A stretch of 64,000 bases of DNA. Source: an uncultured Sphingomonadaceae bacterium (lineage in GTDB: Bacteria > Pseudomonadota > Alphaproteobacteria > Sphingomonadales > Sphingomonadaceae). Shown here one piece after another: positions 207 to 34,807 of this stretch; position 1 is the stretch's first letter, and each line of letters opens with the position of its first letter. The DNA is taken from contig CAIQHF010000014.1 in the NCBI GenBank assembly GCA_903871605.1, positions 36,917-100,916 of the forward strand, given 5' to 3'. Made by a program: the position numbers and the translations under genes. The notes below the pieces were generated by a model, which searched no databases, was not told where the DNA came from, and saw only the letters and a list, made by a program, of their open reading frames with translations.

Positions 207-1133
207 TCACGGTTTGTCGACGAGTGGCGTCACCACGTCCAATGTCATCCGGGCGACGCGCCGCGCGCCTTCCTCGTTGAAATGGCAGTGGTCGTGCCGA
301 AACCGATCGCCGAGGACATCGGTGTTCGGCCCGGCGACGATACGCGGATCGGATGCGACCGCGGCGGTTTCCGCCGCGATCACGCTTGCCGTACTCGCCT
401 GGCGCTTGGCCCCCGTACAGATCGACGCACGATAAAGGACCAGCTTGGCGTCCGGCTTGAGCGGGAAGGTGGTGAGCACGGTATGCAGCGCCCGCTCGAT
501 CGTCGGCTGCAATTCCGCCTGGCTTGGCTTGAACCATGCGTCTGTTTCGCCCTGGTGCCAGAGCACGACGTCGGGTGGCCCGACGATCCTCGCGGCGTCG
601 ATGACCCGGTCGCGCAATTGCCGCATATACGGCGAGTGCGGATCGGTCCAATCGCTGAACTGCGAGCCCCCGATGGCGCCGCTGATCATCACGACCGGGC
701 GTCCGCTTTGCTCGGCGAGCATCGGCGCAAAACGGCTCCACACGCTGCCGAAGGTTCCGTTGGAGCCCAGCATTGGATCGCGAAGCGCGTAGCACCGGCC
801 TTTGAAGAACATGAATACCGGTGCCGCCGGATTGGCATCGAGCGGCGTCGATATCGCGTTGGCGGCATTAGATTGTCCGGCGGTCGCGATCACGATGGCG
901 TTGCGCGGGCAGGGGAGCGCGATGTTCGAGCCGATATCCTGATTGATCTGTGCCCATTGCTTGTCCTGGCCGGTGATCGCGCGCAGGTCGCCCCTCAGCT
1001 TGATCCACGTGCCTGCGGGCACGTCACCGTCGGGATCGGCGCCGAGGCCATAGATCGTTCCGGCGGCGAACGCCGCGATGGCCACCAGGACGACCACGAC
1101 GAGCAGGACGATGCGACGATGTGAAAAACTCAC
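207..1133 (-). CDS. SGNH-type carbohydrate esterase, sialate O-acetylesterase (SASA/CE6-like) domain, membrane-anchored
   Basis: Motifs ATAGQSNAAN, HQGETDA, DHCHFNEEGARRVA; N-terminal TM segment. Confidence 0.75.
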   Translation of the reverse strand: MSFSHRRIVLLVVVVLVAIAAFAAGTIYGLGADPDGDVPAGTWIKLRGDLRAITGQDKQWAQINQDIGSNIALPCPRNAIVIATAGQSNAANAISTPLDANPAAPVFMFFKGRCYALRDPMLGSNGTFGSVWSRFAPMLAEQSGRPVVMISGAIGGSQFSDWTDPHSPYMRQLRDRVIDAARIVGPPDVVLWHQGETDAWFKPSQAELQPTIERALHTVLTTFPLKPDAKLVLYRASICTGAKRQASTASVIAAETAAVASDPRIVAGPNTDVLGDRFRHDHCHFNEEGARRVARMTLDVVTPLVDKP

Positions 1134-1414
1134 AGCGCGATGCTCAGGATGGGGCGCATAGGATCGAATCCCGATGATGGTCTGTGGCGTCGCATTTTTG
1201 CAAGAGACCCGTCCGATACCAACAAGAAACGCGACGCTGCCCGAAACCGGAGCCGCGGATTGACGCCTAGCCGGACGATGCGACGGTGCGGATGCTTCGG
1301 CGAGCGTTCATCGGTCGTCGAACCGTCACCGCCCACGCACATGCGAGACCCATCATCATCGATGGTACCCGGCGTCATGCGCCGACCAAACACGTAGGCC
1401 CGCCGCATGGCGGC

Positions 1415-2626
1415 TTAGAACAAGCCGACGCCATCGATCGAGAATTGCGGGTCATGGCCCCCCATCGGCGGCACCAGCGAGAGCGAAAGTTGCTGGAACG
1501 CACAATCGCTGTCGGGAACCGTGAAGGTGTAATAGATGCTGACCATCCCGGCCTTGGACGTATCATACGATGGCTGGCCAAGGATGTTGGTCCGTTTGAC
1601 GACGCACTCGAGCGACCAAGCGAGGCTGCTTGCGTCTCCCTTTCCGACATGTTTGGCGACGACGCGCAGGCGATGCGCACCGCTCGGCAGGTGGACGAGC
1701 TGCGTGATCACCTTGCGCGCCATCATTCCAGGCGGCGTGACGAGCACGCCACCTTCTCCGTCAGGCGCATAGCCGATCGTCGCACTGGCGCTGCCTCCCC
1801 TCACCGTCCATTCGAACGGTATCCCGTCCTCGTTCGCGGCGGCGACGCGCGCGGCCTGGATGAAGCGGCCGTCATAGACCAATGGCGCGCTGCCGGGCGT
1901 GGTGAGACGCCATAAGCGGTAGGCGCGATCGAAATCGTTCGATCGGATCAACGTACCGATCAACGTCGCCATTTCCGAGCGTGTCGGGGGCGCGGCCGAG
2001 CGGTGCAGATCGTCGACGATGGCTTCGATACCGGTCGCCTCGTCCTTGCCCAATGCATCGGCCGAGAATATGCCGGGCCGCCACTTCGGCTGCCCGAGCA
2101 GCGTCGTCACGACGGGTTTGCGCGCGACGGGGTCGGCGGCCGTCAGCCGTAGCACCGAGAATACCCGGCCCGCTTCCTCTTCCTCCCGGAGCAGCGCATC
2201 CGCGCGCTGAACGGCAAGGCCGTATTCATGCGCCTGCAGGAATGCGTCGATAAGCCAAAGATTGGTCGGCACGTCCCGCCAGCCGAGCCGGCTAGCAAGC
2301 AGCATGATCGGCACGACGCCGCGATCGTCAGGGTTGGCGGCTTCCTTCGACAGGCCCAGGACGCGAAGCGCCGAGATATTGACCAGCGAGCGGTCCAGCG
2401 AACGCCTGGCGAGACGCTCGGCCTCGTCATAGCGTCGCGCCTCGAACGCCTGTTCGGCCGCGTCGGCATTGGCCAAGGCGCCCCACGGCATGATCGAGAC
2501 CGCCGTGGCCGGATCGAGCGGGTCTTCGAAATAGGATGCGTTGACCACAATCACCAAGGCCGCGAGGACAATGCCCGCCAGGACGACGAGCAGCCGGCGC
2601 GCGGGCATGGCGGCGGACTTTCTCAC
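1415..2626 (-). CDS. Uncharacterised EPS-locus protein: N-terminal TM, TPR-like region, beta-rich C-terminus
   Basis: 403-aa ORF whose start abuts the end of the wzc-like gene; repeat-like AEQAFEARRYDEAERLARRSL. Confidence 0.7.
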   Translation of the reverse strand: MRKSAAMPARRLLVVLAGIVLAALVIVVNASYFEDPLDPATAVSIMPWGALANADAAEQAFEARRYDEAERLARRSLDRSLVNISALRVLGLSKEAANPDDRGVVPIMLLASRLGWRDVPTNLWLIDAFLQAHEYGLAVQRADALLREEEEAGRVFSVLRLTAADPVARKPVVTTLLGQPKWRPGIFSADALGKDEATGIEAIVDDLHRSAAPPTRSEMATLIGTLIRSNDFDRAYRLWRLTTPGSAPLVYDGRFIQAARVAAANEDGIPFEWTVRGGSASATIGYAPDGEGGVLVTPPGMMARKVITQLVHLPSGAHRLRVVAKHVGKGDASSLAWSLECVVKRTNILGQPSYDTSKAGMVSIYYTFTVPDSDCAFQQLSLSLVPPMGGHDPQFSIDGVGLF

Positions 2627-4891
2627 CTAGCTCGCCTGCTTGTTGCCGCTTCCGTAGCTGTAGCTATAGCTGTAGCCATAGCCGTAGCCATAACCATAGC
2701 CGGTCGCGTCGGCATCGAATTTGGTAAGGAGTACGCCCAGCACGGGGGCATGGCTGGACGCGAGACGCCTGAGCGCCAGCTTGGCCGCACCGCGGTGCCC
2801 CACGTTGGAGTCGACCACGAAGACGACGCCCTCGGCCATCGAGGCGAGCTGAAGCGAATCGGCGAAGCCCATGACCGGGGGGCAGTCGACGACGAGCACG
2901 TCGTAGCTCGCCAGTGCGGTCTGGAAGAAGCGCTTGAGCGCGAAATTGCTCAACAGGTCGGTCGGGTTGGGCGGCAGCGGCCCCGACGAGAGGAAGTCGA
3001 GATTGTCGACGTCGAGCTTCTGCACGACATCGGCGAGCGGGTTCTGGTTCGTCAGCTGGCTGACGAAGCCGCCATTGTTCTTGAGCTGGAGCTGGCGGTT
3101 GAGCGACGGCAGACGAAGGTCGCCATCGACCAGAAGCACGCGCTTGCCGATCCGCGCGAGGTTCTGCGCCGTTGCCAGCGCGGACGTGCTCTTGCCTTCC
3201 GATGGTCGGCTGCTGGTGAAGGTGATCACCCGCGGCAGGCCTTCGGGGGTCGAGAATTCGAGCGCCGTGCGGAGCGAATAATAGGCCTCCGCGAGCGACG
3301 ACCGCGGATCCTTGATCTCCTCCATCGGCGACAGCTCGCTTTTGCTGATCGGGATCGTGCCCAGCACGGGCACGCCGAGCTTCCGGGTGACATCGTCCGG
3401 GGTGCGGAGCGCGTCGTCGAGCAATTCGCGGCCGGCGACGAACAATGCGGCGAGGACGATACCGAGAAGCAGAGCCACCGAGAAGTTGATGAACGGCTTG
3501 GGGCGGATCGGCGTGTGCGAGATGACCGCGGGATCGATCAGCGAGAGGTTGTTGGTCTCGACACCGGCCGATACGGTCAGTTCCTTATAGCGCTGCAGCA
3601 GCGCGTTGTAGAGACTGCGGTTCGTGTTTGCGTCGCGCTGAAGGATGTTGAGTTCGATTTCCTTCTGTTGATCGCCGAGTGCGTCGCCGCGGAGTCCGGT
3701 GACGGATGCCTTGAGCGCCTGCTCCTGTGCAACGTCGGACCGGTAGCTCTCCTCGAAGGAATTCCTGATGTTGGTGGCGGCACGCGAAAGCTCGCCGTCG
3801 ATCTGGGCAATCTGCGCAGAAAGCTGCTGGATAACGGGGTGATCCGCCTTGTAGCGCTGCTTCTGTTCCTGCAGGCTGGCCCGAAGATCGGCCCGTTTCT
3901 GGTACATGGACTGGACCGCGCTGTTCGCGAGCACTTCGGGGATGTCCATCAGGGGCATCTTCTGGGCGGCTTCCCAGCGTTGCTGTGCGCGAATGCGCTC
4001 CGCCTGTGCGTCGCCATAGGCGTTGTTGAGCTGCACCAGCGTGCTCGTCGAAAGCGTGCCGGTCGCCGGATCGCCCGAGCCATCGGCGCCGCCACCACTG
4101 GCGGGTCCGACCGCGATCAGACCCGCCGACTGCGCGTAGGCGATCGCCTTGCGCTGCGACGCCTCGAGCGCCCGCTGCGTGGCGTTCAATTGCTGAAGGA
4201 TGAACGTCCGCGCATATTCGGTGCCGGCGGATTTGCGCGACAGATTCTGGTCCATATAAGCGGCGGCATAGCCGTCGGCGACCGCCGCCGAGAGCGCTGC
4301 ACTGGGCGAATCGAAATTGAGCGTGGCCGCGCGCGAATTGCCGGGCAGATCGATGCTCATATTCTTGCGGAGCAGGCCGATCACGACATTCTGCATGACC
4401 GGATCTTGTGGGCTCGCATTGGCCGACGAGAGCGGCTTTCCGCCCATCCGTGTGATGAAGTTGTTGTTGTACAGGTTCAACCGCTGCGCGACCTGGCCCG
4501 CCAGCGTGCGACTTGTCAGAATCGCTTTCTGCGTCTCAAGGAAGCGGGTCGAATCCGCGATCGGCGTCGCCGCATCGACCGACTGCGTGTTGACGACATT
4601 GTCGGAGGTCTGCTCGATCTGCACGACCGATGAGCCGCGATAGATGCGTGTCGACAGCAGCGTCACCGCTATCCCGACGAGCACGCACATCGCGATGATG
4701 CCGACGATCGGAATCATGTTCCGTCGGATCATCGCCATAATCAGCGGGATGTTGAGACTGAAACCCGGAGAGGTTGTCTCACCATAGGGTTCCGCGTTGT
4801 CGGCGGCCCCGACATTGGCGCGCGGGCCTTCCCAGATCTCGGCGCTATCGGGGTCGTAGGAGCTAATCTCGGTCATATCCCCACCTGACAC
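2627..4891 (-). CDS. GumC/Wzc-family polysaccharide co-polymerase with BY-kinase domain and C-terminal Tyr cluster
   Basis: Walker A SSRPSEGKSTSALATAQNLA, Walker A' VLLVDGDLR, Walker B VLVVDCPP, Wzz-type N-term, tail GYGYGYGYGYSYSYSYGSG. Confidence 0.93.
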   Translation of the reverse strand: MSGGDMTEISSYDPDSAEIWEGPRANVGAADNAEPYGETTSPGFSLNIPLIMAMIRRNMIPIVGIIAMCVLVGIAVTLLSTRIYRGSSVVQIEQTSDNVVNTQSVDAATPIADSTRFLETQKAILTSRTLAGQVAQRLNLYNNNFITRMGGKPLSSANASPQDPVMQNVVIGLLRKNMSIDLPGNSRAATLNFDSPSAALSAAVADGYAAAYMDQNLSRKSAGTEYARTFILQQLNATQRALEASQRKAIAYAQSAGLIAVGPASGGGADGSGDPATGTLSTSTLVQLNNAYGDAQAERIRAQQRWEAAQKMPLMDIPEVLANSAVQSMYQKRADLRASLQEQKQRYKADHPVIQQLSAQIAQIDGELSRAATNIRNSFEESYRSDVAQEQALKASVTGLRGDALGDQQKEIELNILQRDANTNRSLYNALLQRYKELTVSAGVETNNLSLIDPAVISHTPIRPKPFINFSVALLLGIVLAALFVAGRELLDDALRTPDDVTRKLGVPVLGTIPISKSELSPMEEIKDPRSSLAEAYYSLRTALEFSTPEGLPRVITFTSSRPSEGKSTSALATAQNLARIGKRVLLVDGDLRLPSLNRQLQLKNNGGFVSQLTNQNPLADVVQKLDVDNLDFLSSGPLPPNPTDLLSNFALKRFFQTALASYDVLVVDCPPVMGFADSLQLASMAEGVVFVVDSNVGHRGAAKLALRRLASSHAPVLGVLLTKFDADATGYGYGYGYGYSYSYSYGSGNKQAS

Positions 4892-4923: not shown

Positions 4924-5598
4924 TCAAAAGCGCGTGAAGATCCCGATGACGGGCGCGGCGAGAAGGAAGTCGCGCCATGCCGCCTTGATGTTCGAGTATC
5001 CCAGCACGACGGTGTCGTTTGGCTGCAGAACCGGATCGACCGCCTCGCCGCGCCGGATCGAGGTCACATTGAAAACGGCGCCCATTCTTTGGTCGCCGAC
5101 CACCCGGAATACGACGACCTGACTGAGCTTTGCGGTTCGCGTCGGACCCTTGGCGAGAGCCAGTGCCTCCAACAGCGTCGTCTGCCCCTGGCGCAGGTCG
5201 TAAACTCCCGGATCGACCACCGTTCCTTCGACCACGACCTTCGGCAAGGATGGCGTGGTGACGTTGACGGCGACCTTGGGCGAGACGAGGAACCGCCCGC
5301 CCAACCGCCGCGAAATCTCCGAGGCCAATTGCTCGCCCGTCTTGTCTGCGGCGTCGATCTGACCGACCAGCGGCAGCGACACATAGCCACCGCTATCCAC
5401 CAACAGAGCAGGGACCGACAGATCGGGCTCCTGGAACACATTGACGCTGATGATGTCGCCGCGTGCAATGCGATAAGGCGAAGTGCTGGCCGCAACGGTC
5501 GCACTCGGCTTGAACGTCGCTTCGCCATCGGGAAGGTCGACCGGAGTTTGACATCCCGAAACGACGACGCAACTCAACAGCACGAGCAGTTTTTTCAT
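4924..5598 (-). CDS. Polysaccharide export outer-membrane lipoprotein (Wza/GumB family)
   Basis: Lipobox MKKLLVLLSCVVVSGC; YRIARGDIISVNVFQEPDLS and SLBB-like repeat; start trimmed from the ORF-track start to internal ATG at 5598. Confidence 0.9.
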   Translation of the reverse strand: MKKLLVLLSCVVVSGCQTPVDLPDGEATFKPSATVAASTSPYRIARGDIISVNVFQEPDLSVPALLVDSGGYVSLPLVGQIDAADKTGEQLASEISRRLGGRFLVSPKVAVNVTTPSLPKVVVEGTVVDPGVYDLRQGQTTLLEALALAKGPTRTAKLSQVVVFRVVGDQRMGAVFNVTSIRRGEAVDPVLQPNDTVVLGYSNIKAAWRDFLLAAPVIGIFTRF

Positions 5599-5713
5599 TC
5601 GGCCCCCACATCGGCAGCTGAGGATGATTGGGTGACCCCACCGCCTCTTCGCACCGGCAGCATTCTCATAGCATGAAAGACACCGGGCGCAATCGCCATA
5701 TGCCACCGAGGCT

Positions 5714-7210
5714 TTAGTTATCGGCGGCGTCGCGTCTCGGCGGTTCGCTCGATGTGTCTTGCATAATCGCGGTTTTTCTGCGCCGCTGCGACATGATCTG
5801 CGGCTGCGTCGCCGAGATCGCCCGCCCGATGAACAGGCCCAGAACGGTCTCCAAGGCGAGCGTGCGCAGGGGGTAATCGGTCAGGGAATGGAGCGCGAAC
5901 AGCAGGATCGCATAAAGCGCGGCCTCCATCATCGTGCGCTCGGCCGAGCGGTCTGCAAGCTGTCGCCGGCCCCTGGCGATCTTGGCAAGATATACGATCG
6001 TAGCGATCAGCAGCAACGGGCCGAAAATGCCTGTTTCGACCGCGAGCTGCATGAAGTCGTTGTGCGCATCATTGACGTAGAGCGGCCCGACGATCGACAG
6101 CTGTTCGATCGACCTAAACACCGGATCGAAGGATCCAAGCCCTGTGCCGATCGGGAAGAACACGCCGATCGCGTAGATGACGTCCGGCCAGAAGTGGGCA
6201 CGTGCGTCGTCGCTCGCCTGGTATCGGTGCAGCAGCAGTTGGAAGCCCGATGTGAAGTATAGTGCGGCGAGTGCGACGACGATCACTGCGACCACCGTGA
6301 TCACGACCGGCGGTTTCACGCGCACGCGGTAGCGCAGGCGAAAGAACCACGGAATCGTCAGCACCACGGCGATGACGGCGACCGCGGACGCGGTACGCGA
6401 TGCGGTGGCCAGCGTCCCGAGCAGGCAGACGCCCATCATGGCGAGCAACAGCACGCGCTCGACCGAAACCGTGCCGCGAACGCGTCCTTTCGCGCCGGCG
6501 GCGAGCGCGGCCGCTGCCAGGAAGGCGACGTCGAGAAACGCGCCCTGGTGATTGCGATTGGCGAAAAAGCCCGTGGCGAGGCCCTGCTGCGAGGTTATGT
6601 AGAGATAGGCGGTCCCGGTCGGGCCCATCGCAACCTGCATCGAGCTCAATGCCACGCTCGCCCCCGCAACGGCGATCATCAGCAGAAGAAGATGCCGGGT
6701 CTCGGCCATGGTGAGACGCAGCGCGGCAAGCATCATCGCTGCCGCGGGAATGAGCGCCAACGCGCTGCGCAGCGTCATGTCGGGGTCGAGCGAGATCGGC
6801 CGATATGCCGCGGACGTGCCGAGCAGCTCCGACGCGTCCTTGCTGAAACCCCGCCCCGGCAGATTCTGCCACACCGAGGGCGGCAACGGAATGAGCTGGA
6901 TGAGCGGCAGCAATATGGTGAGCAGCAGAAGCAGCAGGCCCCACCTGGCAGGCCGGCCGACCGATGCCCATTCGAGCCGCCACAGCTCGGAGGTCAACAC
7001 GATGACGCCGGTTAGCTCGACGACGAGTTCGGTCGCTGGAAACCCCGACCCGCCGCCACCCAGCAACAGCGCAACGGCGAGCAACGCACCCGGCCCGGCC
7101 ATTGAGCGATAATAGAGCGCCTCTGACGGCTTTCTGCCGAGACCGCGCGAGCGGCCATAGCGCGCAGACGAGGAGGGGTGGCTTGAAGATCTCGAGCGGT
7201 GCCGCGACAT
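5714..7210 (-). CDS. O-antigen ligase / Wzy-like polymerase, multi-TM
   Basis: Polytopic protein with GFFANRNHQGAF and NDAHNDFMQLAVETGIFG, typical of the Wzy_C/WaaL family. Confidence 0.88.
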   Translation of the reverse strand: MSRHRSRSSSHPSSSARYGRSRGLGRKPSEALYYRSMAGPGALLAVALLLGGGGSGFPATELVVELTGVIVLTSELWRLEWASVGRPARWGLLLLLLTILLPLIQLIPLPPSVWQNLPGRGFSKDASELLGTSAAYRPISLDPDMTLRSALALIPAAAMMLAALRLTMAETRHLLLLMIAVAGASVALSSMQVAMGPTGTAYLYITSQQGLATGFFANRNHQGAFLDVAFLAAAALAAGAKGRVRGTVSVERVLLLAMMGVCLLGTLATASRTASAVAVIAVVLTIPWFFRLRYRVRVKPPVVITVVAVIVVALAALYFTSGFQLLLHRYQASDDARAHFWPDVIYAIGVFFPIGTGLGSFDPVFRSIEQLSIVGPLYVNDAHNDFMQLAVETGIFGPLLLIATIVYLAKIARGRRQLADRSAERTMMEAALYAILLFALHSLTDYPLRTLALETVLGLFIGRAISATQPQIMSQRRRKTAIMQDTSSEPPRRDAADN

Positions 7211-7353: not shown

Positions 7354-7995
7354 ATGGGCCTTTTCAAGTCGCTGGTGGACCGGGCCCGGCTCGTGCCGCT
7401 GCTCAGAAAACAGCACGACAGCGCCGAGCTGCGTGCGCATTTTGCGGCGCGGCACGATATTGTCGTCGGGCTCTATTCCTACGGCTGCTTCGATCGCTGG
7501 CGGATGCCCGGGCCCTTGCGAATCGGCCGCTACTGTTCGTTCGCCAAGACCGTCCGCGTCGTCGATGCCAATCACCCGGTCGAGGCGCTGACCACGCACC
7601 CCGCGCTCTACGAGCGCCAGTTCGGCGTGATCGACGAGGATATCATCCATGCCGCGCCGCTCATCATCGAGGACGATGTCTGGGTCGGCCACAATGTCGT
7701 CATCCTGCCCGGCTGCAAACGGATCGGGCGCGGCGCGGTGATCGGCGCGGGATCGATCGTCACCCGCGACGTCGAACGCTACGAGATCTTAGCCGGCGTC
7801 CCGGCGCGGCACCTGCGGCAACGCTTTGCGCCCGAGCTCGCCGCGGCGATCGAGGCGAGCCACTGGTGGGAGATGGACAGCGCCGCGTTGCGCGCGCTCG
7901 TCGCCGCGCACCATGACACCGTCTATAGCCCGACCCCCGAGACGATCGCGGCGGCGTTTCCGCGGCGATTCGAACGGGCAGGGGCGGGCGTCTGA
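7354..7995 (+). CDS. Left-handed beta-helix (hexapeptide) acyltransferase
   Basis: IIEDDVWVGHNVVILPGCKRIGRGAVIGAGSIVTRDVERYEILAGVPARHLRQRF. Confidence 0.88.
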   Translation: MGLFKSLVDRARLVPLLRKQHDSAELRAHFAARHDIVVGLYSYGCFDRWRMPGPLRIGRYCSFAKTVRVVDANHPVEALTTHPALYERQFGVIDEDIIHAAPLIIEDDVWVGHNVVILPGCKRIGRGAVIGAGSIVTRDVERYEILAGVPARHLRQRFAPELAAAIEASHWWEMDSAALRALVAAHHDTVYSPTPETIAAAFPRRFERAGAGV

Positions 7996-7998
7996 CGG

Positions 7999-8871
7999 TC
8001 AGTCCCGCGCGCCCGCGGGCAGCGCCATGCCGAACGGATTGTCGCCGAAACGGACCTGGATGTCGTCGAAATCCAGCACGCGCTCGCTGATTCCGGGGTC
8101 GCCGCCATGATGGCCCCACCGCGGCACATAGACCCCGGCCTTGAGATAGGGGCCGATAAGGTCGCGATGCGCGTTGGGACCGCGATCGTTGACGATCATG
8201 GCATTGCCGAGCCACGCGACGACGCTGCCCTTGCCGCTCACCGACCAATGGACGCGAAACGTCCAGCGTTGCCAATGGCCCTTGACCAGCGGCGCCGTGC
8301 CGATCGTGCTGATGCCCTCCGTGTTGCCGAATGCGGTCGGGGTCGAGACGATCCGGGTGTCCCAGGATTTGTGCACCACCCAGTTTCTGCCCGCTATGTC
8401 GAGCTCGAGCGGCGGATATTTGCCCGGTTCGAACAGAAAAAAGTCCTTCGAGCCGTGCCACTGCATCGCGATCACCGGGGTGGCGCTGTCCTGCCAGTCC
8501 GCGGGCACGTAGATGTTCGATCGGTACCAGACCGTCCATCCGACGGGCGTCGGCCGCATCCGCAATTCGCTGCGGAAATTGCCCTTGACGCGGCTGTCGG
8601 TCGGCCGAATGCGGAAGCCGCGCGCGGTGCCTGCATCGCCATCGAGGCCGACCGTGGTGAACGTCGATCCGGCGCAGCAGGCCTGGATGGCATAATCCGC
8701 GCGCTTGCCGAACAGCGCCGCCTCCGATCGCACGAATCGTTCGCCGGGCTCGAATGTCAGGTCGACGGGCGCGCCGTAGCGCATCGACACGAAGTCCGTC
8801 ACCAGCAGGTGCGTGGCGAGTACCAGCCCGCCCAGTGCGAGCGCCAGCCATCCTATCACGCGCCTGAGCAT
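7999..8871 (-). CDS. Heparin-lyase-I-like polysaccharide lyase (PF14099-type), membrane-anchored
   Basis: ELRMRPTPVGWTVWYRSNIYVPADW, IAMQWHGSKD, YLKAGVYVPRWG; internal ATG at 8871 followed by TM. Confidence 0.75.
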   Translation of the reverse strand: MLRRVIGWLALALGGLVLATHLLVTDFVSMRYGAPVDLTFEPGERFVRSEAALFGKRADYAIQACCAGSTFTTVGLDGDAGTARGFRIRPTDSRVKGNFRSELRMRPTPVGWTVWYRSNIYVPADWQDSATPVIAMQWHGSKDFFLFEPGKYPPLELDIAGRNWVVHKSWDTRIVSTPTAFGNTEGISTIGTAPLVKGHWQRWTFRVHWSVSGKGSVVAWLGNAMIVNDRGPNAHRDLIGPYLKAGVYVPRWGHHGGDPGISERVLDFDDIQVRFGDNPFGMALPAGARD

Positions 8872-9100
8872 CACCTGCAGCGTCCCCCCATACCCGCCCT
8901 GCCGCACAGCATCGGCGGTGCCGTGCGGCAAAACACATCTACTTTTGCGTTGCAAGGTGGGGCTCGACTGGTAAACCCCGGCTCGGGGCATGATCGCGTC
9001 GGTGGGATGCGGGATGCGCGGGGGGCGATCGTCGATCATGGTTGATGGGATGGGTCTGCCCGGCGTCGACATGTCTCCGGTCGCCTGATCCGAGACCAGC

Positions 9101-11786: not shown

Positions 11787-11839
11787 CGTGCGATGATGAT
11801 CGATCAGGCGGGGCTTATGTGAACGAGGGAAACGGTCCA

Positions 11840-12973: not shown

Positions 12974-13094
12974 GCGGTCGTGGTTTCCTCACCGTCGTCG
13001 TCGCGGGTTCGGCATCCTGCGCAACGAACCGGCGCCGTGCGTGCGTCGGCGGACCCCACGAAATGGCTTTCGGCATGATGGTTGATCGCCTAGG

Positions 13095-14498: not shown

Positions 14499-14522
14499 AC
14501 GTCATGGTCAATCTGGGCGTGG

Positions 14523-22718: not shown

Positions 22719-22799
22719 CACTCGCCCGGCTGCCCATTGCCCTAGCGCTGTTTGCAATGGAGGGTCGAGCGAACAGGGCGGTTTCGTTAACCGGCTCGC

Positions 22800-23489: not shown

Positions 23490-23781
23490 TGCGCCCCTCC
23501 GTCCAGCCCCATTCCAGTAGGCAGTCGGCAGCCGCGGCGTCAAGCTGAGGATGGCGTTTCGCGCTTCAATCTCCGGCCGGCAAAGCGAAAAGTGGCGCCG
23601 CCGTCCAATCACGGTTACAGTCACGTCAGCCTCTGGCTATGACGTGATAACCGCCGCGGTTCAGACGCGGGTGGCCACAAAGTCCGAATTGCGTTTCTGT
23701 CGACGATTTCACCTCCCATTCCCGGGCCGGGACGCCAGCGACGTGCAAGTTTGCTTGGCGCCGACGACGAAGAAAGACCGC

Positions 23782-26140: not shown

Positions 26141-26144
26141 CGCG

Positions 26145-27536
26145 TCATCTCCGCTGGAATTCGGGTGCGACGAGCAGCAGCGCGAGTTGCTGTTGCGGAG
26201 ACGCGGCAGTCTTGAGCACGTTGACGGTGTCGCGACGCAATGTGCCGGGCAGCAGCGCTGCGATGGTTGATTCGTCCATCGCGGCAGGCGACGCGGCCTT
26301 CGAAGCGATCTGGTTCGCTATATCGAACCGCCGCATCAACTCGTCGGACGCCGCCCAGGTCTGCTGCGTGTCCGCCCACCCCGCGGGCGAGCCAGACTGC
26401 CAGACGGGTTGCCCCAAATGCTGGAGTATCTGCGCCGACATGGCGAGCGTGGTGGGGTCCGGATTGATGGCGCGCCACGTCGATATCGTCCAGTCCCAGG
26501 GCGATTTGAACTTACCCGCGGGGGCTGCCCAGCTCTCGGGCGCGGCGATCAGGGCGCGATAGACCGTCTTCAGATCGCCACCGCTCGTCTGAAACGCCGC
26601 AGCGAGCCTGTTCACGAGCGCCGGCGACGGCGTATCGGTGACGAAATGCACGGCAAGCTTCGTCGCGATATGGCGCGCGGTCTCGGGGCGCAGCGCGACG
26701 TCGGCCAGCACCGCCTGACCCTGTTCGGCCTGACCGTCTGCGTATCGACGACCCAATATGGTTCGTTCGCCCGGTTCGTGGATGTCGGCGTCGTAAACGG
26801 GTTCGCCATAGACGCCGGGAAGCTGTCCGCCCGCACCGGTGCCAACGATCGTGCGGCCGGTCAGCGCCCGCGCGAACTCGGCGACGTCCGCCTGGGTATA
26901 GCCGGAGCGAACCCCGAGCGTATGAAGTTCGAGAATTTCGCGCGCGAGATTCTCGTTGATACCGATCGCGCGCCGCGCGAAGCGCTTTCCCGAGGGGCTG
27001 TTCGGACCGACCGAGACCGACTGGTCGAGATAGCTCAGCATCGCCGGATGCCCCTCGACCGCGACCAGCAGGTCGCTGAACCGGCCCATGATATTGGGGC
27101 GGATCGCCTCGAATTCGAACGGGCCCGCGGTTGCCAGCAGATCGCCCTTGTTGGTCGATACGGCAAAGTGGTTGGACCAGAAATGGACCAGACGCTCGGC
27201 AAATGGCGTGTCGCTCTGCACCGCCGCCGCAATCCGTGCGGCGACCTGGTCGTTCATCATCTGCCGGATGCTGACGTTCATCGCGCGCGCATCGGCCATC
27301 GCCTGCGGGCTCGCATCGCTTCTCGCGGCACGCTGGGCGTCGCGAATGCTCTTTATCTCGGCCGTGGCCTGGCGATAACTTGGAGCGGCGGCGATCGCCG
27401 GCGGCCGAACGTCGAAACGGTCAAGCTGCGCCGAAAGCCATTCCTGTGGATCCGAGACGGCAGGATCCTGCGGCCGAGCGCCGAGGCCGAACCGGTTGAG
27501 CGCTATGCTCTGCATGTACGCCGTGCTGATCGCCAT
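26145..27536 (-). CDS. DUF1800 family protein
   Basis: LNRFGLGARP, ERLVHFWSNHFAVS, NENLAREILELHTLGVRSGYTQADVAEFARALTG; 4 nt before the DUF1501 gene. Confidence 0.92.
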   Translation of the reverse strand: MAISTAYMQSIALNRFGLGARPQDPAVSDPQEWLSAQLDRFDVRPPAIAAAPSYRQATAEIKSIRDAQRAARSDASPQAMADARAMNVSIRQMMNDQVAARIAAAVQSDTPFAERLVHFWSNHFAVSTNKGDLLATAGPFEFEAIRPNIMGRFSDLLVAVEGHPAMLSYLDQSVSVGPNSPSGKRFARRAIGINENLAREILELHTLGVRSGYTQADVAEFARALTGRTIVGTGAGGQLPGVYGEPVYDADIHEPGERTILGRRYADGQAEQGQAVLADVALRPETARHIATKLAVHFVTDTPSPALVNRLAAAFQTSGGDLKTVYRALIAAPESWAAPAGKFKSPWDWTISTWRAINPDPTTLAMSAQILQHLGQPVWQSGSPAGWADTQQTWAASDELMRRFDIANQIASKAASPAAMDESTIAALLPGTLRRDTVNVLKTAASPQQQLALLLVAPEFQRR

Positions 27537-27706
27537 GCATTTTGGGTAGGGCGTTTGATCATGAAGCTCAAATTAAAGCGGGTTCACGCGCCTCGACTCG
27601 CCTAATTCTCCGCTCATCCTGCCGCGGCCGATTGTGCGAGGCAGAAACAATGCTAATCGATCGGAACCGCGTCGGCTTCACCATCAAAGAAGGAATAACC
27701 TTGGTC

Positions 27707-28900
27707 ATGGGAGGTCGCGCGAAGCCCCGGCGTGTGCTCATCATCGTCGAAAATCTCCCGGTGCCGTTCGATCGTCGCGTCTGGATGGAGGCGACGACCC
27801 TCCAGCAGGCGGGCTATCACGTTTCGATCATCTGCCCGGTCGGCAAGGGGTTCGAGGCGCGTCGGGAGACGCTCGACGGCATCCACATCTACCGCCATCC
27901 GCTTCCGCGCGAGGGCAATGGCCTGTTCGGCTACATCGCCGAATATGGCGCGGCGCTGTTCTGGGAACTTTGGCTGGCCCTGCGGATCGCATTCACGCGC
28001 GGCTTCGACGTCATCCACGCCTGCAATCCGCCCGACCTCATCTTCCTCGTCGCCGCCGTCTTCCGCCTGTTCGGAAAGAAATTCCTGTTCGATCATCACG
28101 ATCTCTGTCCCGAATTGTTCGAGACCAAGTTCGGCAATCGAGGGCCGCAATATAAGGCGATGGTGCTTGCCGAGCGCCTGACGTTCGGGCTCGCCTCGGT
28201 GTCGATCGCGACCAACGAGAGCTACCGGCAGATCGCGATCGAGCGCGGTCACATGCCGCCCGATCGGGTCTTCGTCGTGCGGTCCGGTCCCAATCTCGAC
28301 AAGGTCAAGCCCGGGCCCGCCGTGCCCGCGCTCAAGCAGGGCAAGCCGCTGCTGGTCGGCTATGTCGGCGTGATCGGTCGACAGGAAGGGCTCGATTTGC
28401 TCGTCGAGGCGGCGGCCTGGCTACGCGCGCAGGGCAGGGCGGCCCTCCATTATGGAATCGTCGGCGGCGGCCCGGAGTTGGAGGCGATCAAGGCCTATGC
28501 GAGCGCGCAAGGCGTCGCGGACCTTTTCACCTTCACGGGGCGCGCGCCCGATGCGCTGCTGATGGACATGCTCAACACCGCCGACATCTGCGTCAATCCG
28601 GATCGCGTCGATGCGATGAACGACCTCTCCACGATGAACAAGATCATGGAATATATGGCGTTGGGCAAGCCGATCGTGCAGTTCGAGGTCAAGGAAGGGC
28701 GGTTCTCCGCCGGGGACTCGTCGCTCTATGCCAAGCCCAACGACCCGGTCGACTTCGCGCGCAAGATCGCCGAGCTCGCCGATGATCCGGCCAAGCGCGC
28801 CGAGATGGGCGCTTTCGGATTCCGGCGGGTCCACGATCATCTCGGCTGGGAGCATGAGCGGCCCAAGTTGCTCGCCGCCTATGATGCGGTCTTCTCCTAG
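27707..28900 (+). CDS. Glycosyltransferase family 4
   Basis: ENLPVPFDRRVWMEATTLQQAGYHVSIICP, FDHHDLCPELFETKF, GQEGL-type donor region, MNKIMEYMALGKPIVQFE. Confidence 0.9.
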   Translation: MGGRAKPRRVLIIVENLPVPFDRRVWMEATTLQQAGYHVSIICPVGKGFEARRETLDGIHIYRHPLPREGNGLFGYIAEYGAALFWELWLALRIAFTRGFDVIHACNPPDLIFLVAAVFRLFGKKFLFDHHDLCPELFETKFGNRGPQYKAMVLAERLTFGLASVSIATNESYRQIAIERGHMPPDRVFVVRSGPNLDKVKPGPAVPALKQGKPLLVGYVGVIGRQEGLDLLVEAAAWLRAQGRAALHYGIVGGGPELEAIKAYASAQGVADLFTFTGRAPDALLMDMLNTADICVNPDRVDAMNDLSTMNKIMEYMALGKPIVQFEVKEGRFSAGDSSLYAKPNDPVDFARKIAELADDPAKRAEMGAFGFRRVHDHLGWEHERPKLLAAYDAVFS

Positions 28901-28918: not shown

Positions 28919-30157
28919 GTGACGTCGCTCTTATCCCGCGGGCAAGTGGCGGCCCTATCGGTCTTGCTCTGCCTTTTCGTGGCGGAGGCGCTTCTGGTCT
29001 CGGGCCCGGTCGGCCGGATATTGGCGATACGAAGCCTGCATATGCTTCGTGGAGGCGGCGATGTCATGCCACTGGCCGCGCCCTTCGACGTGACGGCACG
29101 GCGATCGCTCGTGGCGGTTCGTGATCTGCACTTCGGCCAATGCCGGACACCGCCCGTACCCGAGCGTGACTCGCAGCCGATCCCGCGCTTCTACGTCGAC
29201 GACAAGCAATCGGTCAGGGACCCGGAGAAATGGGCGGAAGGGGCAAGGCTGGTCCGTCCGTTACGCGTCTTCGGCAACGAGCTTGCGACGATGACATCCG
29301 ACGATCTGGCGGACCGCGTGCCCGACCAGACGCGCCGCGACTGCATGATGCGCTATCTCGAGAGCTGGTCGCAGGCCGGGGCGCAGACCGGCAGGATGAA
29401 CTACATGACGTCGAGCAATCGGGCCTGGTTCGTGATCATCGATGCGGCCACCGCACTGATCGCGCTCAAGCAGGATCGAGCGATCATGCCGGAACGCGCG
29501 GCGCCGATCGAACATTGGCTCGCGGCGCTGGCCTGGTCCGTGTTGAAGACCGATGACCAGCTGATGCGGCGGATCAAGCGCACCCCGCGCTATCCCAACA
29601 ACCATATCTATTGGGCCGGCGCCGCGGCAGTCGCGGCGGCGGTGGCGGCGCAGGATCCCGCTCTGTTTCTGCGGGGTGTCACCGCGGGGAGGCTTGGTCT
29701 GATGCAGGTCGACCGCGACGGTCTTCTGTCGGGCGAGTTATGGCGTGGTCAGCGCAGTTATGGCTATACCTTATGGGGCGCCGGCCCATTGGTGCTGATC
29801 ATTCGCTTCGCCAAGGCCAACGGTATCGACCTCACGCCGCTCAACGATCATGCCTTGGCGCGCTTCGGCGATGCGATCGTGCGCGCACCCCACACGCCCG
29901 CCTTGTTCGAGGCGCGCGCAGGTGCAACGCAGCTGGGCATGAGAGAATGGCCGCGCCAAGCGGGTGATGTGCAATTTGCCGATGTGTTTCTCGGGCTCGA
30001 CGAGAACGCCGCGATCGAGCGAGCGGTCGCGCCATATCGTCCGATCTTCAGTCAAATGCTCGGCGGCAACCTGACCGCTCTCTATGCGCCGCCCGCGATA
30101 GCGCGGAGCGCGGCGCTCCATCCATCCGCGACGCCGCTCCCCCAGCCACCGCTATAA
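28919..30157 (+). CDS. Alginate-lyase-family (AlgL/PL5-like) membrane-anchored protein, GTG start
   Basis: YPNNHIYWAGAAAVAAAVAAQDPALF...SYGYTLWGAGPLVLIIRFAKANGIDL resembles the NNHSYWAAW ... core of AlgL. Confidence 0.75.
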   Translation: MTSLLSRGQVAALSVLLCLFVAEALLVSGPVGRILAIRSLHMLRGGGDVMPLAAPFDVTARRSLVAVRDLHFGQCRTPPVPERDSQPIPRFYVDDKQSVRDPEKWAEGARLVRPLRVFGNELATMTSDDLADRVPDQTRRDCMMRYLESWSQAGAQTGRMNYMTSSNRAWFVIIDAATALIALKQDRAIMPERAAPIEHWLAALAWSVLKTDDQLMRRIKRTPRYPNNHIYWAGAAAVAAAVAAQDPALFLRGVTAGRLGLMQVDRDGLLSGELWRGQRSYGYTLWGAGPLVLIIRFAKANGIDLTPLNDHALARFGDAIVRAPHTPALFEARAGATQLGMREWPRQAGDVQFADVFLGLDENAAIERAVAPYRPIFSQMLGGNLTALYAPPAIARSAALHPSATPLPQPPL

Positions 30158-30180
30158 TGCACGCCGCAGAGCGAGGCTGG

Positions 30181-31485
30181 TCAAGGCAGGCTGTTGATCG
30201 CCGCGATGCGAACGCCGGCGAGCCCCAGCGTGGCGGCGTCGCCCCGCGCGTCGACCACGAGATCGAAATCGGCCTCTTGCAACTGCTCGGGCGTGCGGAG
30301 CAACAGGCTGGTCATTTCGGGCAGGTGCGCGAAGGAATAGCCCAGATTCTGGCCGGTCAGCGCCGATGGCTCGAGCTGCGGATCCCAGATTTTGAGATCG
30401 TAGCCGCCCTGGAGCAGCCGCCGCGCCAGATCGACATAGGGGCTCTCACGCAGATCGTCGCTGTTCGCCTTGAAGGCGAGGCCGTTAAGCAGGATCTTGG
30501 CAGCCGGCGCCACGCCGTCGGTCGCGCGTTCGTAGAGATAGCGCTTGTGCGCGTCGTTGCTGCGCATGATCGCATCGAGCACGAAGGTTTCGGCGCCGAC
30601 CTCGTTCGACAAATAGGTCAGCGCGCGCACGTCCTTGGGCAGGCAGGAACCGCCGAATGCGCCGCCGGGGCGCAGATAATAAGGCGAAATGTTGAGCTTG
30701 GTGTCCGAGATGAAGATCTCATGCACGGTCTTTGCGCTGACGCCCTCGCGGCCACAGATACGGCCGATCTCGTTGGCGAAGGCGACCTTGAGCGCGTGGA
30801 AGCTGTTGTCGACGAACTTGGTGATTTCGGCCTCGCGATAGCCGACATAGAATCGCGGCGCCTCGATCGCGCCGTACAATTCATCGACGGTGGCAGAGGG
30901 TTTGCCGTCGACCGTTCCCACCACGATCTTTGGTGGCGCGTAATAATCCTTGAGCGCGGTCGATTCGCGCAGGAATTCGGGATTATAGACCAGCTCGACC
31001 GTGTTCGACATGTCGCCGAGAAAGCCCTTGAAGATCGGCGCGATCAGCTTGTCGATCGATCCGGGACGCATCGTCGAGCGATACATCACGGTCAGCGGGC
31101 GCTCGCGCGCGGGGAGTGCTGTGGCGGCGATCGCGATCTGGCGCGAGACCTCGGCGATATAGCCCATATTGTGCGACCCATCGACCGCGCTCGGCGTGCC
31201 GACGCAGACGATCGCGAGCGTGCAATCTGCGAGGCGGTCGCCGATCTCCTGGAATGCCTCGAGCCGGCCCTGCGCGACGCCCTGCGCGAGCAGCGCCTCA
31301 AGCCCCGGCTCGTAGATCGGGCTCTTTCCCTCGTTGATCATGCGGACCTTGCTGTCGCTGACGTCGATGCCGATCACGTGATGGCCGTCGTTGATCAGGC
31401 ACGCAGCCGATGTGAGGCCGACATAGCCGACGCCGAAAATTGCAACCTTCAAGCGATTATCCCCCGCTGGATCGTCCGTTCGCAC
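30181..31485 (-). CDS. UDP-glucose/GDP-mannose dehydrogenase family, AlgD-like (possible GDP-mannose 6-dehydrogenase)
   Basis: VAIFGVGYVGLTSAACL, GKSPIYEPGLEALLAQG, NPEFLRESTALKDYYAPPKIVVG, GGAFGGSCLPKDVRALTY, LNGLAFKANSDDLRESPYVDLA. Confidence 0.9.
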   Translation of the reverse strand: MRTDDPAGDNRLKVAIFGVGYVGLTSAACLINDGHHVIGIDVSDSKVRMINEGKSPIYEPGLEALLAQGVAQGRLEAFQEIGDRLADCTLAIVCVGTPSAVDGSHNMGYIAEVSRQIAIAATALPARERPLTVMYRSTMRPGSIDKLIAPIFKGFLGDMSNTVELVYNPEFLRESTALKDYYAPPKIVVGTVDGKPSATVDELYGAIEAPRFYVGYREAEITKFVDNSFHALKVAFANEIGRICGREGVSAKTVHEIFISDTKLNISPYYLRPGGAFGGSCLPKDVRALTYLSNEVGAETFVLDAIMRSNDAHKRYLYERATDGVAPAAKILLNGLAFKANSDDLRESPYVDLARRLLQGGYDLKIWDPQLEPSALTGQNLGYSFAHLPEMTSLLLRTPEQLQEADFDLVVDARGDAATLGLAGVRIAAINSLP

Positions 31486-31581
31486 GGACGCTGAAACTAT
31501 GCCGCAGTTGCGAACGGCGCCAGCGGAATCGATCCGCCATGGCCGATCCGTCCGAACGGGATCGTGCCGATCGCGCGTGCG

Positions 31582-32670
31582 TCAGTGTGGCGCCTTCCGG
31601 ATCCCGTCGAACAGGCCAAGGTTCGGTACCAGTGGCGCACCCGATGCCTGTTTGGCATCGATCTCGCTCGCGGTCGCTTGCGCGAGCCTGGCGCGCCTGG
31701 TCCATCCGGGGTGGCTGGGGCTTGCGAGAATGCCCAGGCCGTGATCCCGGCCGAAGCGCCGCCAGAAATCCGCCGCTTTGTGATAGTCGTAGCCGGCGCG
31801 GGCCATCAGATAGAGATCGGTATAGTCCGCCTCGATTTCGGATTCCCTCGTCCCGACCGCACCTGCCTCGATCCGCCCCTTGCGCAGCCCGGCCGCGGGA
31901 TGATCGTGATGGACATTATGCGCGGTTTCGTGCCCGAGCACGACCGCGAGCTCGTCGTCGTCCCTCGCGTAGCGGACCATATCGATCGTGATCGTGGCGG
32001 CGACGCCGTCCGCGTAGGAGTCGAACCCCGGCGCCAGGGAAAGGTCGGTGCGCGAGGCGCAGCCGATGGCCGGCACCAGCGCGAGGTCGAGCGTCTTGCC
32101 GCCGCGGTTGACCGAGACGATCGTCCTGCCCCTGGCCATAGCGGCATCCATCGCGGCCGAAAACGCGTCGATCCGCGCCGTGCTCGCGGGTTGCTGCGCG
32201 ATCGCGCGCGCAGGCTCGACGACGGGCCTCGCGTCGATCGCGGTGATGGCGTCGCCAGCGAGGACGCCCGCGCGTGCGGCGGGGCCGTCGGGAACCACCA
32301 GCATCACGGTATAGCCCGAATCCATCTTGAAGAAGCGGATCGCGGCGGAACGCATGTCGGGCTTATATTCGGTCGGATCCTGAACGACCCAGCCGGCCTC
32401 GGGTTGTAGCGTGTCGCACAGGCCGCGATTGGCGGTCGTCAGGCGATAGCCCACCGAGGCCACCCGCGCCTGTTGGTGCAGCAGTTCGGCAAAGCCCTGA
32501 TCCCACTCGCCCGGGTTCGCGCCGGCGGCGTATGTGGGTGACGCCAGGGCGGTGATCAGAGCGGCGGTGATGGTCGGTCTGCGCAAACGAACCCGATCAA
32601 TTGGGGCGCCCGAAGGCCAGGCGACGACAATCATGACGCGCGCGCCATGATGTGCAAGCGCAGTGCGCAC
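31582..32670 (-). CDS. M48-like metalloprotease with PDZ-like domain
   Basis: VLGHETAHNVHHDH zinc motif; GYTVMLVVPDGPAARAGVLAGDAITAIDARPV PDZ-like; start uncertain. Confidence 0.8.
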   Translation of the reverse strand: MRTALAHHGARVMIVVAWPSGAPIDRVRLRRPTITAALITALASPTYAAGANPGEWDQGFAELLHQQARVASVGYRLTTANRGLCDTLQPEAGWVVQDPTEYKPDMRSAAIRFFKMDSGYTVMLVVPDGPAARAGVLAGDAITAIDARPVVEPARAIAQQPASTARIDAFSAAMDAAMARGRTIVSVNRGGKTLDLALVPAIGCASRTDLSLAPGFDSYADGVAATITIDMVRYARDDDELAVVLGHETAHNVHHDHPAAGLRKGRIEAGAVGTRESEIEADYTDLYLMARAGYDYHKAADFWRRFGRDHGLGILASPSHPGWTRRARLAQATASEIDAKQASGAPLVPNLGLFDGIRKAPH

Positions 32671-33010: not shown

Positions 33011-33325
33011 CATGGTGTCCTCCTTTACCGAACCTGAATCGGGTAATGCTGCGATGCCACAGCGCCCCGCTTCCGTCAACCATCCGATCGGCGGCGCTTC
33101 CGACCGATTATGGTGTGCCACTGTAATATCGCCGAAAATCAATTACTTCGTGGTTAATGGGCCACAGCGCTCGCCGGCGGCCCAAGATCCGAGTCCATAG
33201 GCAGACTATGCGTTTATTGCGTAGGAAGGATCGACTCGCCTTGTCGTTGCTTCGCTTTGACATCGTGTCAACGCCGCGGTGCGGCTACTTGTCTCGATTA
33301 GGGAGATTCTTCGTGACGCGCTGAT

Positions 33326-34807
33326 TTGCTGTGCTGCAAGATTAGCGGTACGAAGACTCGGCGGTCGGCCATCTTGGGGGGCGACGTGAACGTTTTGGGG
33401 AACAACGTGAACGTTATCGCGGATCGGGCTGTCTGGGGAGATGCGTCGGCATCGCCGACCATGCCCCAGATCCCGCCGCGGCGGGATCGCCTGCGGCTCG
33501 GCCTTCAATTCTCGTTGATCGCGATCGACATGGTCGGGCTGGCGACCGGCGACCTGCTCGCTCACTTTGTCTGGCTCGGCCCCGGCGCCTGGCCCCATGC
33601 GCTGGACAGCATAGCGGCGTTCCTGCCGCTCTATCTGCTCGCCGGCATCTACAGCGGCGCTTTCTCGTCCAGCGTCCTGTCCGATGCGCGGCGCAGCATG
33701 GTGCGCGGCTTCCGGACCGTGGTGCTGACCTGTCTCGGGGTGGTGCTCGTCGGCTTCTTCCTCAAGGCCGGCGACCAGATCTCCCGCGTCGCGCTGCTGA
33801 TGAGCGGCGTGTTCGGCGCTACTCTGGTGGTGACGATGCGCCCGATCTTCTATTATTGGGCGAAGCGCTGCTACGGCACGCTGCTCTATAGCGAAGTGTT
33901 GCTGCTCGACGATTGTCGCTGCGACGCCCCTCGCGGCGTGTTCGTGCTCGATGCGGCGAAGGTGGGATTGCGTTGCGATCTGCGCGATCCGCACATGCTC
34001 GATCGGATCGGGCGGCTACTCGCACCTGCCGACCGGGTCATCGTCGCATGCGCGGTCGAGCGGCGTCGCGACTGGGCGATGATGCTCAAGGGCGCCAACA
34101 TCCGCGCCGAGATCATGAGTGGCGAACTGACGCCGCTGGGCCCGCTGGGCACGGGTCGCTTCGACGGCGGCTCGACCGTGATCGTCGCCGCCGGCTCGCT
34201 CGACATCCGCCAGGGCATGATGAAGCGCGCGCTCGATTTCGGGCTGGCGCTGGTCGCGCTGATCATGCTCTCGCCGCTGCTGGTCGCGGTCGCCGTCGCG
34301 ATCCGGCTCGACAGCTCGGGTCCGGTCTTCTTCGAACAGCGCCGCGTCGGGCGTGGCAACCGCCAGTTCGGCATGTTCAAATTCCGCAGCATGCGAACCG
34401 AGAATTGCGACCAGCACGGCGGACGCTCGACGATGCGCGACGACGATCGGATTACGCGCGTCGGCCGCTTCATCCGCTCGACCAGCATCGACGAGCTGCC
34501 GCAACTGCTGAACATCCTCAAGGGCGACATGAGCTTCGTCGGGCCCCGGCCGCATGCGCTGGGCTCGCTGGCGGGCGAACTGCTGTTCTGGGAGGTGGAC
34601 GAGCGCTATTGGCATCGCCACGCCTGCAAACCCGGATTGACCGGGCTCGCGCAGGTGAGGGGGTTTCGCGGCGCGACGCATTCGCAATCGGATCTCGTCA
34701 ACCGCCTCCAGGCCGATCTCGAATATCTGGCAGGGTGGACGATCTGGCGCGACGTCTCGATCCTGCTCGCGACCGTCCGCGTGGTGGTGCACCGCAACGC
34801 CTATTGA
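33326..34807 (+). CDS. Bacterial sugar transferase (polyprenyl-phosphate hexose-1-phosphate transferase), EPS priming enzyme; start ambiguous (GTG 33386, GTG 33407 or ATG 33461)
   Basis: MMKRALDFGLALVALIMLSPLLVAVAVAIRLDSSGPVFFEQRRVGRGNRQFGMFKFRSM, STSIDELPQLLNILKGDMSFVGPRPHAL, KPGLTGLAQVRGFRG. Confidence 0.93.
   Translation: MLCCKISGTKTRRSAILGGDVNVLGNNVNVIADRAVWGDASASPTMPQIPPRRDRLRLGLQFSLIAIDMVGLATGDLLAHFVWLGPGAWPHALDSIAAFLPLYLLAGIYSGAFSSSVLSDARRSMVRGFRTVVLTCLGVVLVGFFLKAGDQISRVALLMSGVFGATLVVTMRPIFYYWAKRCYGTLLYSEVLLLDDCRCDAPRGVFVLDAAKVGLRCDLRDPHMLDRIGRLLAPADRVIVACAVERRRDWAMMLKGANIRAEIMSGELTPLGPLGTGRFDGGSTVIVAAGSLDIRQGMMKRALDFGLALVALIMLSPLLVAVAVAIRLDSSGPVFFEQRRVGRGNRQFGMFKFRSMRTENCDQHGGRSTMRDDDRITRVGRFIRSTSIDELPQLLNILKGDMSFVGPRPHALGSLAGELLFWEVDERYWHRHACKPGLTGLAQVRGFRGATHSQSDLVNRLQADLEYLAGWTIWRDVSILLATVRVVVHRNAY

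Follow-up and report, generated by a model that had tools for sequence, protein, structure and literature searches.

A probable sanxan-type exopolysaccharide pathway gathered in one locus of an uncultured sphingomonad

The window analysed here comprises 64,000 nucleotides (contig CAIQHF010000014.1, here C14, positions 36917-100916) of the 4.28 Mb genome of an uncultured Sphingomonadaceae bacterium. It carries an exopolysaccharide (EPS) locus that extends, inside the window, from a SASA esterase gene (207-1133) through the genes for a priming transferase and a phosphoesterase to position 35572; the cluster reaches about 6.6 kb beyond the upstream edge of the window. Comparison with Sphingomonas sanxanigenens NX02 makes it very probable that this is a sanxan-type EPS pathway operating via Wzx/Wzy, with its genes clustered in a single locus. 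Sanxan is a gel-forming gum that is authorised for food in China. In NX02 the pathway is scattered on the chromosome and its genes were identified largely by knockouts (PMC5399355). An initial annotation had proposed an EPS, possibly one not described before, assembled by a hybrid of alginate-type and Wzx/Wzy modules. This claim of novelty largely falls away, as the orthologues are the NX02 sanxan genes; the novelty that remains lies in the gathering of the genes into one locus and in the points where the set departs from that for sanxan.

Identification of the sanxan genes

Open reading frames (ORFs) of the window were scanned against Pfam and NCBIfam, and those at 7760-8938, 8939-9931, 15649-16779, 20246-21682 and 30157-31494 were set aside as shadow frames. 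In the decisive comparison, the window proteins were searched by tblastn in the genomes of NX02 and of a second relative, Sphingomonas formosensis CC-Nfb-2 (NZ_WRPK01000001); paired identities below are given as NX02/S. formosensis. Gene content, orthology, order, orientation and lyase motifs were observed directly, and mutant phenotypes are taken from the NX02 literature. The glycosyltransferase (GT), export and sugar-dehydrogenase genes are as follows.

33326-34807, plus strand: priming hexose-1-phosphate transferase (Bac_transf), SsB orthologue; PF02397 3.7e-63; 48% to NX02 SsB
19200-20192, plus strand: GT2, SsQ orthologue (alpha-rhamnose (Rha) onto Glc-PP-Und); 63%/72%
27542-28900, plus strand: GT4, SsH orthologue (proposed glucuronic acid (GlcA) onto Rha); PF13692 6.2e-21; 63% NX02, 84-86% S. 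formosensis
15676-16542, minus strand: GT2, SsT orthologue (proposed beta-mannose (Man) onto GlcA); PF00535 3.3e-23; 56%/70%
23551-24948, plus strand: extra GT4 (GT4_a), true start probably downstream of 23624; PF00534 1.7e-19; 55% S. formosensis
2627-4891, minus strand: Wzc co-polymerase, SsC orthologue; Wzz+GNVR+AAA_31; 53%/64%
4924-5706, minus strand: Wza outer-membrane export protein, SsD orthologue; PF02563 1.3e-21; 51%/66%
5714-7210, minus strand: Wzy_C polymerase, SsG orthologue; PF04932 1.1e-16; 41%/46%
1415-2626, minus strand: membrane-anchored TPR superhelix with a CBM-like beta-sandwich, at the position of NX02_02920
13095-14498, plus strand: putative second Wzy-like integral membrane protein (Wzy2); orthologues of 56% and 38% at conserved positions
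20197-21531, minus strand: putative Wzx flippase, a membrane protein by sequence; 73% S. formosensis
30181-31485, minus strand: AlgD-subfamily nucleotide-sugar dehydrogenase (GGSCLPKDVRAL); UDPG/GMP dehydrogenase; 58%/88%

The published sanxan genes carry the NX02 tags 28170 (ssB), 24170 (ssQ), 24200 (ssT), 04645 (ssH), 28140 (ssS) and 02925-02935 (ssC/ssD/ssG), and the acyltransferases 24165, 24195, 28130 and 28110 are needed for sanxan (PMC5399355). Tags were placed on the chromosome with the help of its two priming transferases, tag 16760 at 3.51 Mb and tag 28170 at 5.91 Mb, which give a scale of about 209.5 bp for each tag unit. The orthologues of the window genes, which form one locus here, fall in four separate NX02 loci. 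The first, at 602-607 kb, holds the TPR protein, SsC, SsD and SsG and matches operon 02920-02935, with a single SsC of 751 amino acids. The second, at 906-912 kb, holds a canonical UDP-glucose (UDP-Glc) dehydrogenase, an epimerase-like gene, the AlgD-like gene and SsH; the pair of GT4 and AlgD-like genes corresponds to ssH 04645 near ugdG 04625. The third, at 5,072-5,086 kb, comprises SsQ, an FrhB protein, a pyruvyltransferase (PVT), Wzy2, an acyltransferase, SsT, SGNH, MBOAT and a lyase in the same relative orientations as in the window; the five genes between its two glycosyltransferases account for the tag gap 24170-24200, and acyltransferases lie exactly at 24165 and 24195. The fourth, at 5,893-5,909 kb, matches the 28170-28110 stretch and holds a second MBOAT (MBOAT2), an acyl carrier protein (ACP), FkbH, SASA, an acyltransferase, rml genes, SsB and the phosphoesterase.

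Thus all four sanxan glycosyltransferases, SsB, SsQ, SsH and SsT, have orthologues (48, 63, 63 and 56% identity) at positions fitting the NX02 tags, SsC, SsD and SsG are present at 41-53% with a single fused SsC, and three of the four required acyltransferases are matched (28110, 28130 and 24195; 49-62%), 24165 being the one for which no clear orthologue was seen. SsQ orthologues above 600 bits occur in only 3 of 401 sampled family genomes (670-704 bits), the next match scoring 248. The initial annotation had named a syntenic match to a characterised cluster of known structure as evidence against its claim; such a match is largely provided by the NX02 sanxan genes, with classical sphingan and promonan clusters unmatched.

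Export and assembly

The GumB/GumC-type export claimed at the outset is present as Wza and Wzc, but the Wzc of 754 amino acids is a single protein with a fused bacterial tyrosine kinase (BY-kinase) and a Tyr-rich tail, whereas the GumC type lacks the kinase. Pfam confirmed the Wzy_C polymerase and the priming transferase. Neither the putative flippase nor Wzy2 gave a Pfam match even at E<=1, and both identities are drawn from membrane topology and conservation.

The TPR protein also had no Pfam match. Its homologues were found in 56 of 201 genomes, so that the export chassis is commoner than close SsQ or PF14099-lyase orthologues; in the inspected loci they adjoin Wzc and/or Wza or Wzy_C. An AlphaFold model with a predicted local distance difference test (pLDDT) score of 87 gave Foldseek matches to TPR and CBM16/CBM4 folds. 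Its NX02 counterpart, NX02_02920, is among the operon genes that reportedly lower sanxan when deleted (PMC5399355), and the protein is a candidate export scaffold.

What follows on substrates, on the structure of the product and on what the lyases, the acyl cassette and the TPR protein do is our inference from this gene set. The priming transferase (33326) would place Glc-1-P onto undecaprenyl phosphate as SsB does, GT2 (19200) would add L-Rha (SsQ), GT4 (27542) a uronic acid, which is GlcA in sanxan (SsH), and GT2 (15676) Man (SsT), while GT4_a (23551) may attach a further residue. The unit or chain would be modified by acyltransferases, PVT/FrhB, MBOAT/SGNH and the upstream cassette of FkbH, ACP, MBOAT2 and a DltD-like protein. 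Wzx (20197) would flip the unit and Wzy_C, Wzc and Wza would polymerise and export it, scaffolded by the TPR-CBM protein; the PF14099 lyase, here accompanied by a PL5 lyase, would act on the 4-linked uronic acid by beta-elimination and so shorten the polymer or set it free. The predicted product is an acylated, probably pyruvylated sanxan-like polymer with a Glc-Rha-GlcA-Man backbone and possibly one extra sugar. The original view of a Wzx/Wzy-assembled, acylated, uronic-acid-containing polymer with lyases is supported. Precursor supply is encoded in the genome, with RmlB on C53 (453 bits) for dTDP-Rha and a ManC-type enzyme on C3 (404 bits) for GDP-Man.

Sanxan or a related polymer

Several points weigh against the assignment to a sanxan-type pathway. 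The NX02 tags were matched by gene order and spacing and not taken from annotation, and some of the sanxan transfer steps, that of SsH above all, are speculative even in the original publication (PMC5399355). The flippase is not similar to SsS, as the window Wzx matched nothing in the ssB/ssS region of NX02 (5.87-5.93 Mb). The RmlB gene lies outside the locus. The extra GT4, extra acyltransferases and methyltransferase mean that the polymer may differ from sanxan, and the AlgD-subfamily enzyme could make GDP-mannuronic acid (GDP-ManA) instead of UDP-GlcA. The AlgD-like assignment made initially is borne out: the nearest solved relative of the dehydrogenase is AlgD 1mfz (333 bits, versus 222 for the top UDP-Glc dehydrogenase), and it carries GGSCLPKDVRAL (CLPKD motif) where canonical enzymes show GGSCFPKD. 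The same pairing with an SsH-like GT4 occurs in a further relative, G033 (L053:15409-16695). With the AlgD-like gene paired with the SsH-like GT4 and a separate canonical UDP-Glc dehydrogenase present, either nucleotide sugar may be the donor.

These observations bring up a sanxan-related but chemically distinct polymer with a branched, O-methylated or ManA-containing repeat, in which the backbone genes come from a sanxan-like ancestor, while a different flippase, an added GT4, the methyltransferase and the PL5 lyase reflect a changed repeat unit and altered specificities. We consider this a serious possibility with somewhat less than even chances. Consistent with it, Wzx, GT4_a and the acyltransferase AcT3_c are unmatched in the NX02 sanxan loci examined, yet common to S. 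formosensis, and the AlgD-like enzyme stands beside the uronosyltransferase in all relatives while a canonical CFPKD UDP-Glc dehydrogenase is separately encoded in each of the three genomes. On the other hand, all four backbone glycosyltransferases have NX02 orthologues at 48-63%, and the conserved neighbours of the GT2 genes point to an unchanged acceptor chemistry. The sanxan-type pathway is the preferred reading.

Lyases

7999-8871, minus strand: PF14099 polysaccharide lyase with N-terminal membrane anchor; PF14099 1.1e-34; 55%/78%
28919-30157, plus strand: PL5 lyase; PF05426 5.4e-23; 7fhu 1.8e-27

Both lyase predictions of the initial annotation, a heparin-lyase-I-like and an AlgL/PL5-like enzyme, hold. 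The QWHG and KAGxY motifs of the PF14099 lyase are invariant across three orthologues, and close orthologues occur in just 3 of the 401 sampled family genomes (this genome, NX02 and S. formosensis); an AlphaFold model from the three sequences reached a pLDDT of only 46. NX02 was reported to be without a SpnR-type releasing lyase (PMC5399355); it has the PF14099 gene at 5,085.1-5,086.0 kb (L013:1492-2373), beside MBOAT. In the PL5 lyase, alignment with 7fhu showed the catalytic NNH and RGxRxxxY motifs retained. Its position between the SsH-like and AlgD-like genes is seen in this genome only, those two genes being directly adjacent in S. formosensis. A PL5 homologue was not found in NX02, and used as a locus marker PL5 led to just 2 further genomes. 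Both enzymes could cleave Man-(1-4)-GlcA bonds by beta-elimination.

Alternatively, the lyases might be catabolic, scavenging foreign uronate polymers and lying beside EPS genes by chance. The S. formosensis PL5 homologue (55%) sits on another contig, outside the EPS blocks, as this explanation would expect; its neighbourhood showed no synteny with the window. Lyases within EPS clusters can serve catabolism, since the welan lyase WelR presumably breaks down the gum of its own strain, WG, once glucose is exhausted (PMC7899989). Nevertheless the PF14099 gene is kept divergent beside MBOAT in all three genomes and has no close homologue in the other sampled genomes, which makes a purely catabolic role improbable.

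Acylation, pyruvylation and other genes

Further genes of the locus, including the cassette at its upstream end, are listed below.

1-13 (C14:35097-36929), minus strand: FkbH-type gene, 5' end in the window; TIGR01686 FkbH 273 bits; 76% NX02
Upstream of FkbH, in this order: ACP, MBOAT2, a DltD/SGNH-like protein of 360 amino acids and acyltransferase AcT3_u; the FkbH-ACP-MBOAT cassette with its DltD-like neighbour lies at L009:15138-19930 (L009 = C14:17000-36999)
207-1133, minus strand: SASA-type carbohydrate esterase; PF03629 2.1e-10; 59% to the NX02 gene beside the 28130 acyltransferase
9101-10687, plus strand: MBOAT O-acyltransferase, DltB-like; PF03062 8e-26; best PDB relative DltB; 66%/80%
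10695-11786, plus strand: SGNH partner of MBOAT; weak PF13472; 68%/75%
11777-12973, plus strand: acyltransferase-3 AcT3_a; PF01757 3.5e-17; 46% S. formosensis
14523-15608, plus strand: acyltransferase-3 AcT3_b, orthologue of NX02_28130; PF01757 5.5e-32; 49% NX02
21735-22718, plus strand: acyltransferase-3 AcT3_c; PF01757 1.7e-22; 63% S. formosensis
16776-17975, plus strand: polysaccharide pyruvyltransferase; PF04230 1.9e-31; 57%/69%
17968-19197, plus strand: FrhB/FdhB-domain protein beside the pyruvyltransferase; PF04432 9.3e-35; 64%/74%
22800-23624, minus strand: methyltransferase; PF13649 8.3e-6
24986-26140, minus strand: DUF1501 protein; PF07394 5.2e-31; 69% S. formosensis
26145-27536, minus strand: DUF1800 protein; PF08811 8e-121; 64% S. 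formosensis
31582-32670, minus strand: M48 peptidase with PDZ domain, conserved neighbour; 42% S. formosensis
34829-35572, minus strand: metallophosphoesterase, conserved neighbour of the priming transferase; PF00149 3.5e-12; 48%/47%

FkbH enzymes make glyceryl-ACP from 1,3-bisphosphoglycerate. FkbH, ACP (PF00550 3.1e-8) and MBOAT2 are adjacent and form a Dlt-like set of carrier protein, activating enzyme and MBOAT, in which the activator is FkbH and not DltA. MBOAT2 is 62% identical to the gene at the NX02 28110 position and AcT3_u 54.5% to that at the 24195 position. The 360-amino-acid protein shows 57% identity; it had no Pfam or NCBIfam match, and the DltD-like label comes from position and sequence features. 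Because FkbH enzymes make glyceryl-ACP and gellan bears glyceryl esters, we tentatively propose that the cassette is a Dlt-like machine passing glyceryl from 1,3-bisphosphoglycerate to the carrier protein, across the membrane and onto the polysaccharide; if true, it would be a genetic basis of glyceryl esters on sphingomonad gums. A literature search linking FkbH to polysaccharides found nothing relevant. FkbH and ACP are neighbours in several other relatives, in four of which (L128, L129, L131 and L132) an MBOAT lies in the stretch examined, and the set of L129 adjoins a pyruvyltransferase; L127 appears to carry a similar set. No FkbH match was found in S. formosensis, so the cassette is modular.

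The methyltransferase has no counterpart in the related loci examined (NX02 and S. formosensis). G+C content falls to 55-58% at 12000-16000 (acyltransferase/Wzy2) and 22000-24000 (AcT3_c/methyltransferase), against about 65% around them, and these stretches are possible recent gene swaps. The DUF1501/DUF1800 pair is retained in S. formosensis, and in NX02 about 40 kb separate it from the ssQ block; it has also been reported in bacterial chitin synthase operons (PMC5122149). Beyond the locus, 36989-53001 encodes a long catalase, alanine dehydrogenase/PNT, a phosphate transporter with a PhoU-like protein, an M1-type peptidase and release factor RF3.

Comparison with known systems

With the alginate operon the locus shares an AlgD-subfamily dehydrogenase, a PL5 lyase and an MBOAT. 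That operon is synthase-dependent, and Alg8, Alg44, AlgK and AlgE, whose absence had been remarked on initially, were not seen among the Pfam-scanned ORFs of the locus. The proposed "alginate-type modules" are not supported: an MBOAT and adjacent SGNH protein are real, but their nearest relatives are DltB and generic SGNH proteins and no AlgI-specific model matched, and the PL5 gene is an insertion, with none at the corresponding place in S. formosensis. An alginate-like or ManA-rich polymer assembled via Wzx/Wzy with imported alginate modules, as first suggested, is therefore very unlikely despite the AlgD-like enzyme and the intact PL5 motifs, the more so as the glycosyltransferases match the proposed Rha, GlcA and Man transferases.

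Promonan (prm) of Sphingomonas sp. LM7 likewise has a Wzx/Wzy locus with an essential OafA-type acyltransferase, but its cluster contains GH10/GH16 hydrolases, no lyase is mentioned, and the LM7 authors found no sanxan-like genes in that strain (PMC11340318). Classical sphingan clusters (spn/gel/wel/dps) share the Wzx/Wzy route, a priming Glc transferase, Rha and GlcA and a lyase gene (SpnR/WelR). They encode separate SpnC and SpnE proteins in place of one fused Wzc, their glycosyltransferase sets differ, and WelR is a beta-helix lyase whereas the window lyases belong to PF14099 and PF05426, in agreement with the first impression that this is not a classical sphingan cluster. Promonan and classical sphingan clusters were both rejected on gene content.

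S. formosensis has nearly all window genes in near-identical order within blocks (41-88% identity), but in two blocks about 185 kb apart. Block 1 (C12:965.9-981.3 kb) holds the TPR protein, Wzc, Wza, Wzy_C, the PF14099 lyase, MBOAT, SGNH, Wzy2 and three acyltransferases. Block 2 (C12:1166.8-1192.7 kb) holds SsT-like GT2, PVT, FrhB, SsQ-like GT2, Wzx, GT4_a and SsH-like GT4, together with DUF1501, DUF1800, the AlgD-like enzyme, M48, the priming transferase and the phosphoesterase, and in addition RmlB, a canonical UDP-Glc dehydrogenase and ManC. Two acyltransferases occupy different positions, the priming transferase and phosphoesterase are inverted, and the blocks are without PL5, the methyltransferase and the FkbH cassette.

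NX02 shares with the window SsB, SsQ, SsH, SsT, SsC, SsD, SsG and three of four acyltransferases, and also the PF14099 lyase, MBOAT/SGNH, PVT/FrhB and FkbH/ACP/MBOAT2. The window differs in having one locus, not four, another Wzx, the extra GT4, acyltransferases, methyltransferase and PL5, and DUF1501/1800 inside the locus, while a 2OG-Fe oxygenase beside Wzy2 in NX02 has no clear orthologue in the window. Synteny thereby adds candidates outside the published NX02 pathway (the PF14099 lyase, the MBOAT/SGNH and pyruvyltransferase/FrhB pairs and the FkbH acyl cassette), which are possible engineering targets for sanxan chain length and acylation. The sanxan pathway has been described as "scattered", which served as an argument for a cluster-scatter-cluster evolutionary cycle (PMC5399355). 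With a one-locus relative and the two-block intermediate of S. formosensis, this argument becomes a testable phylogenetic series.

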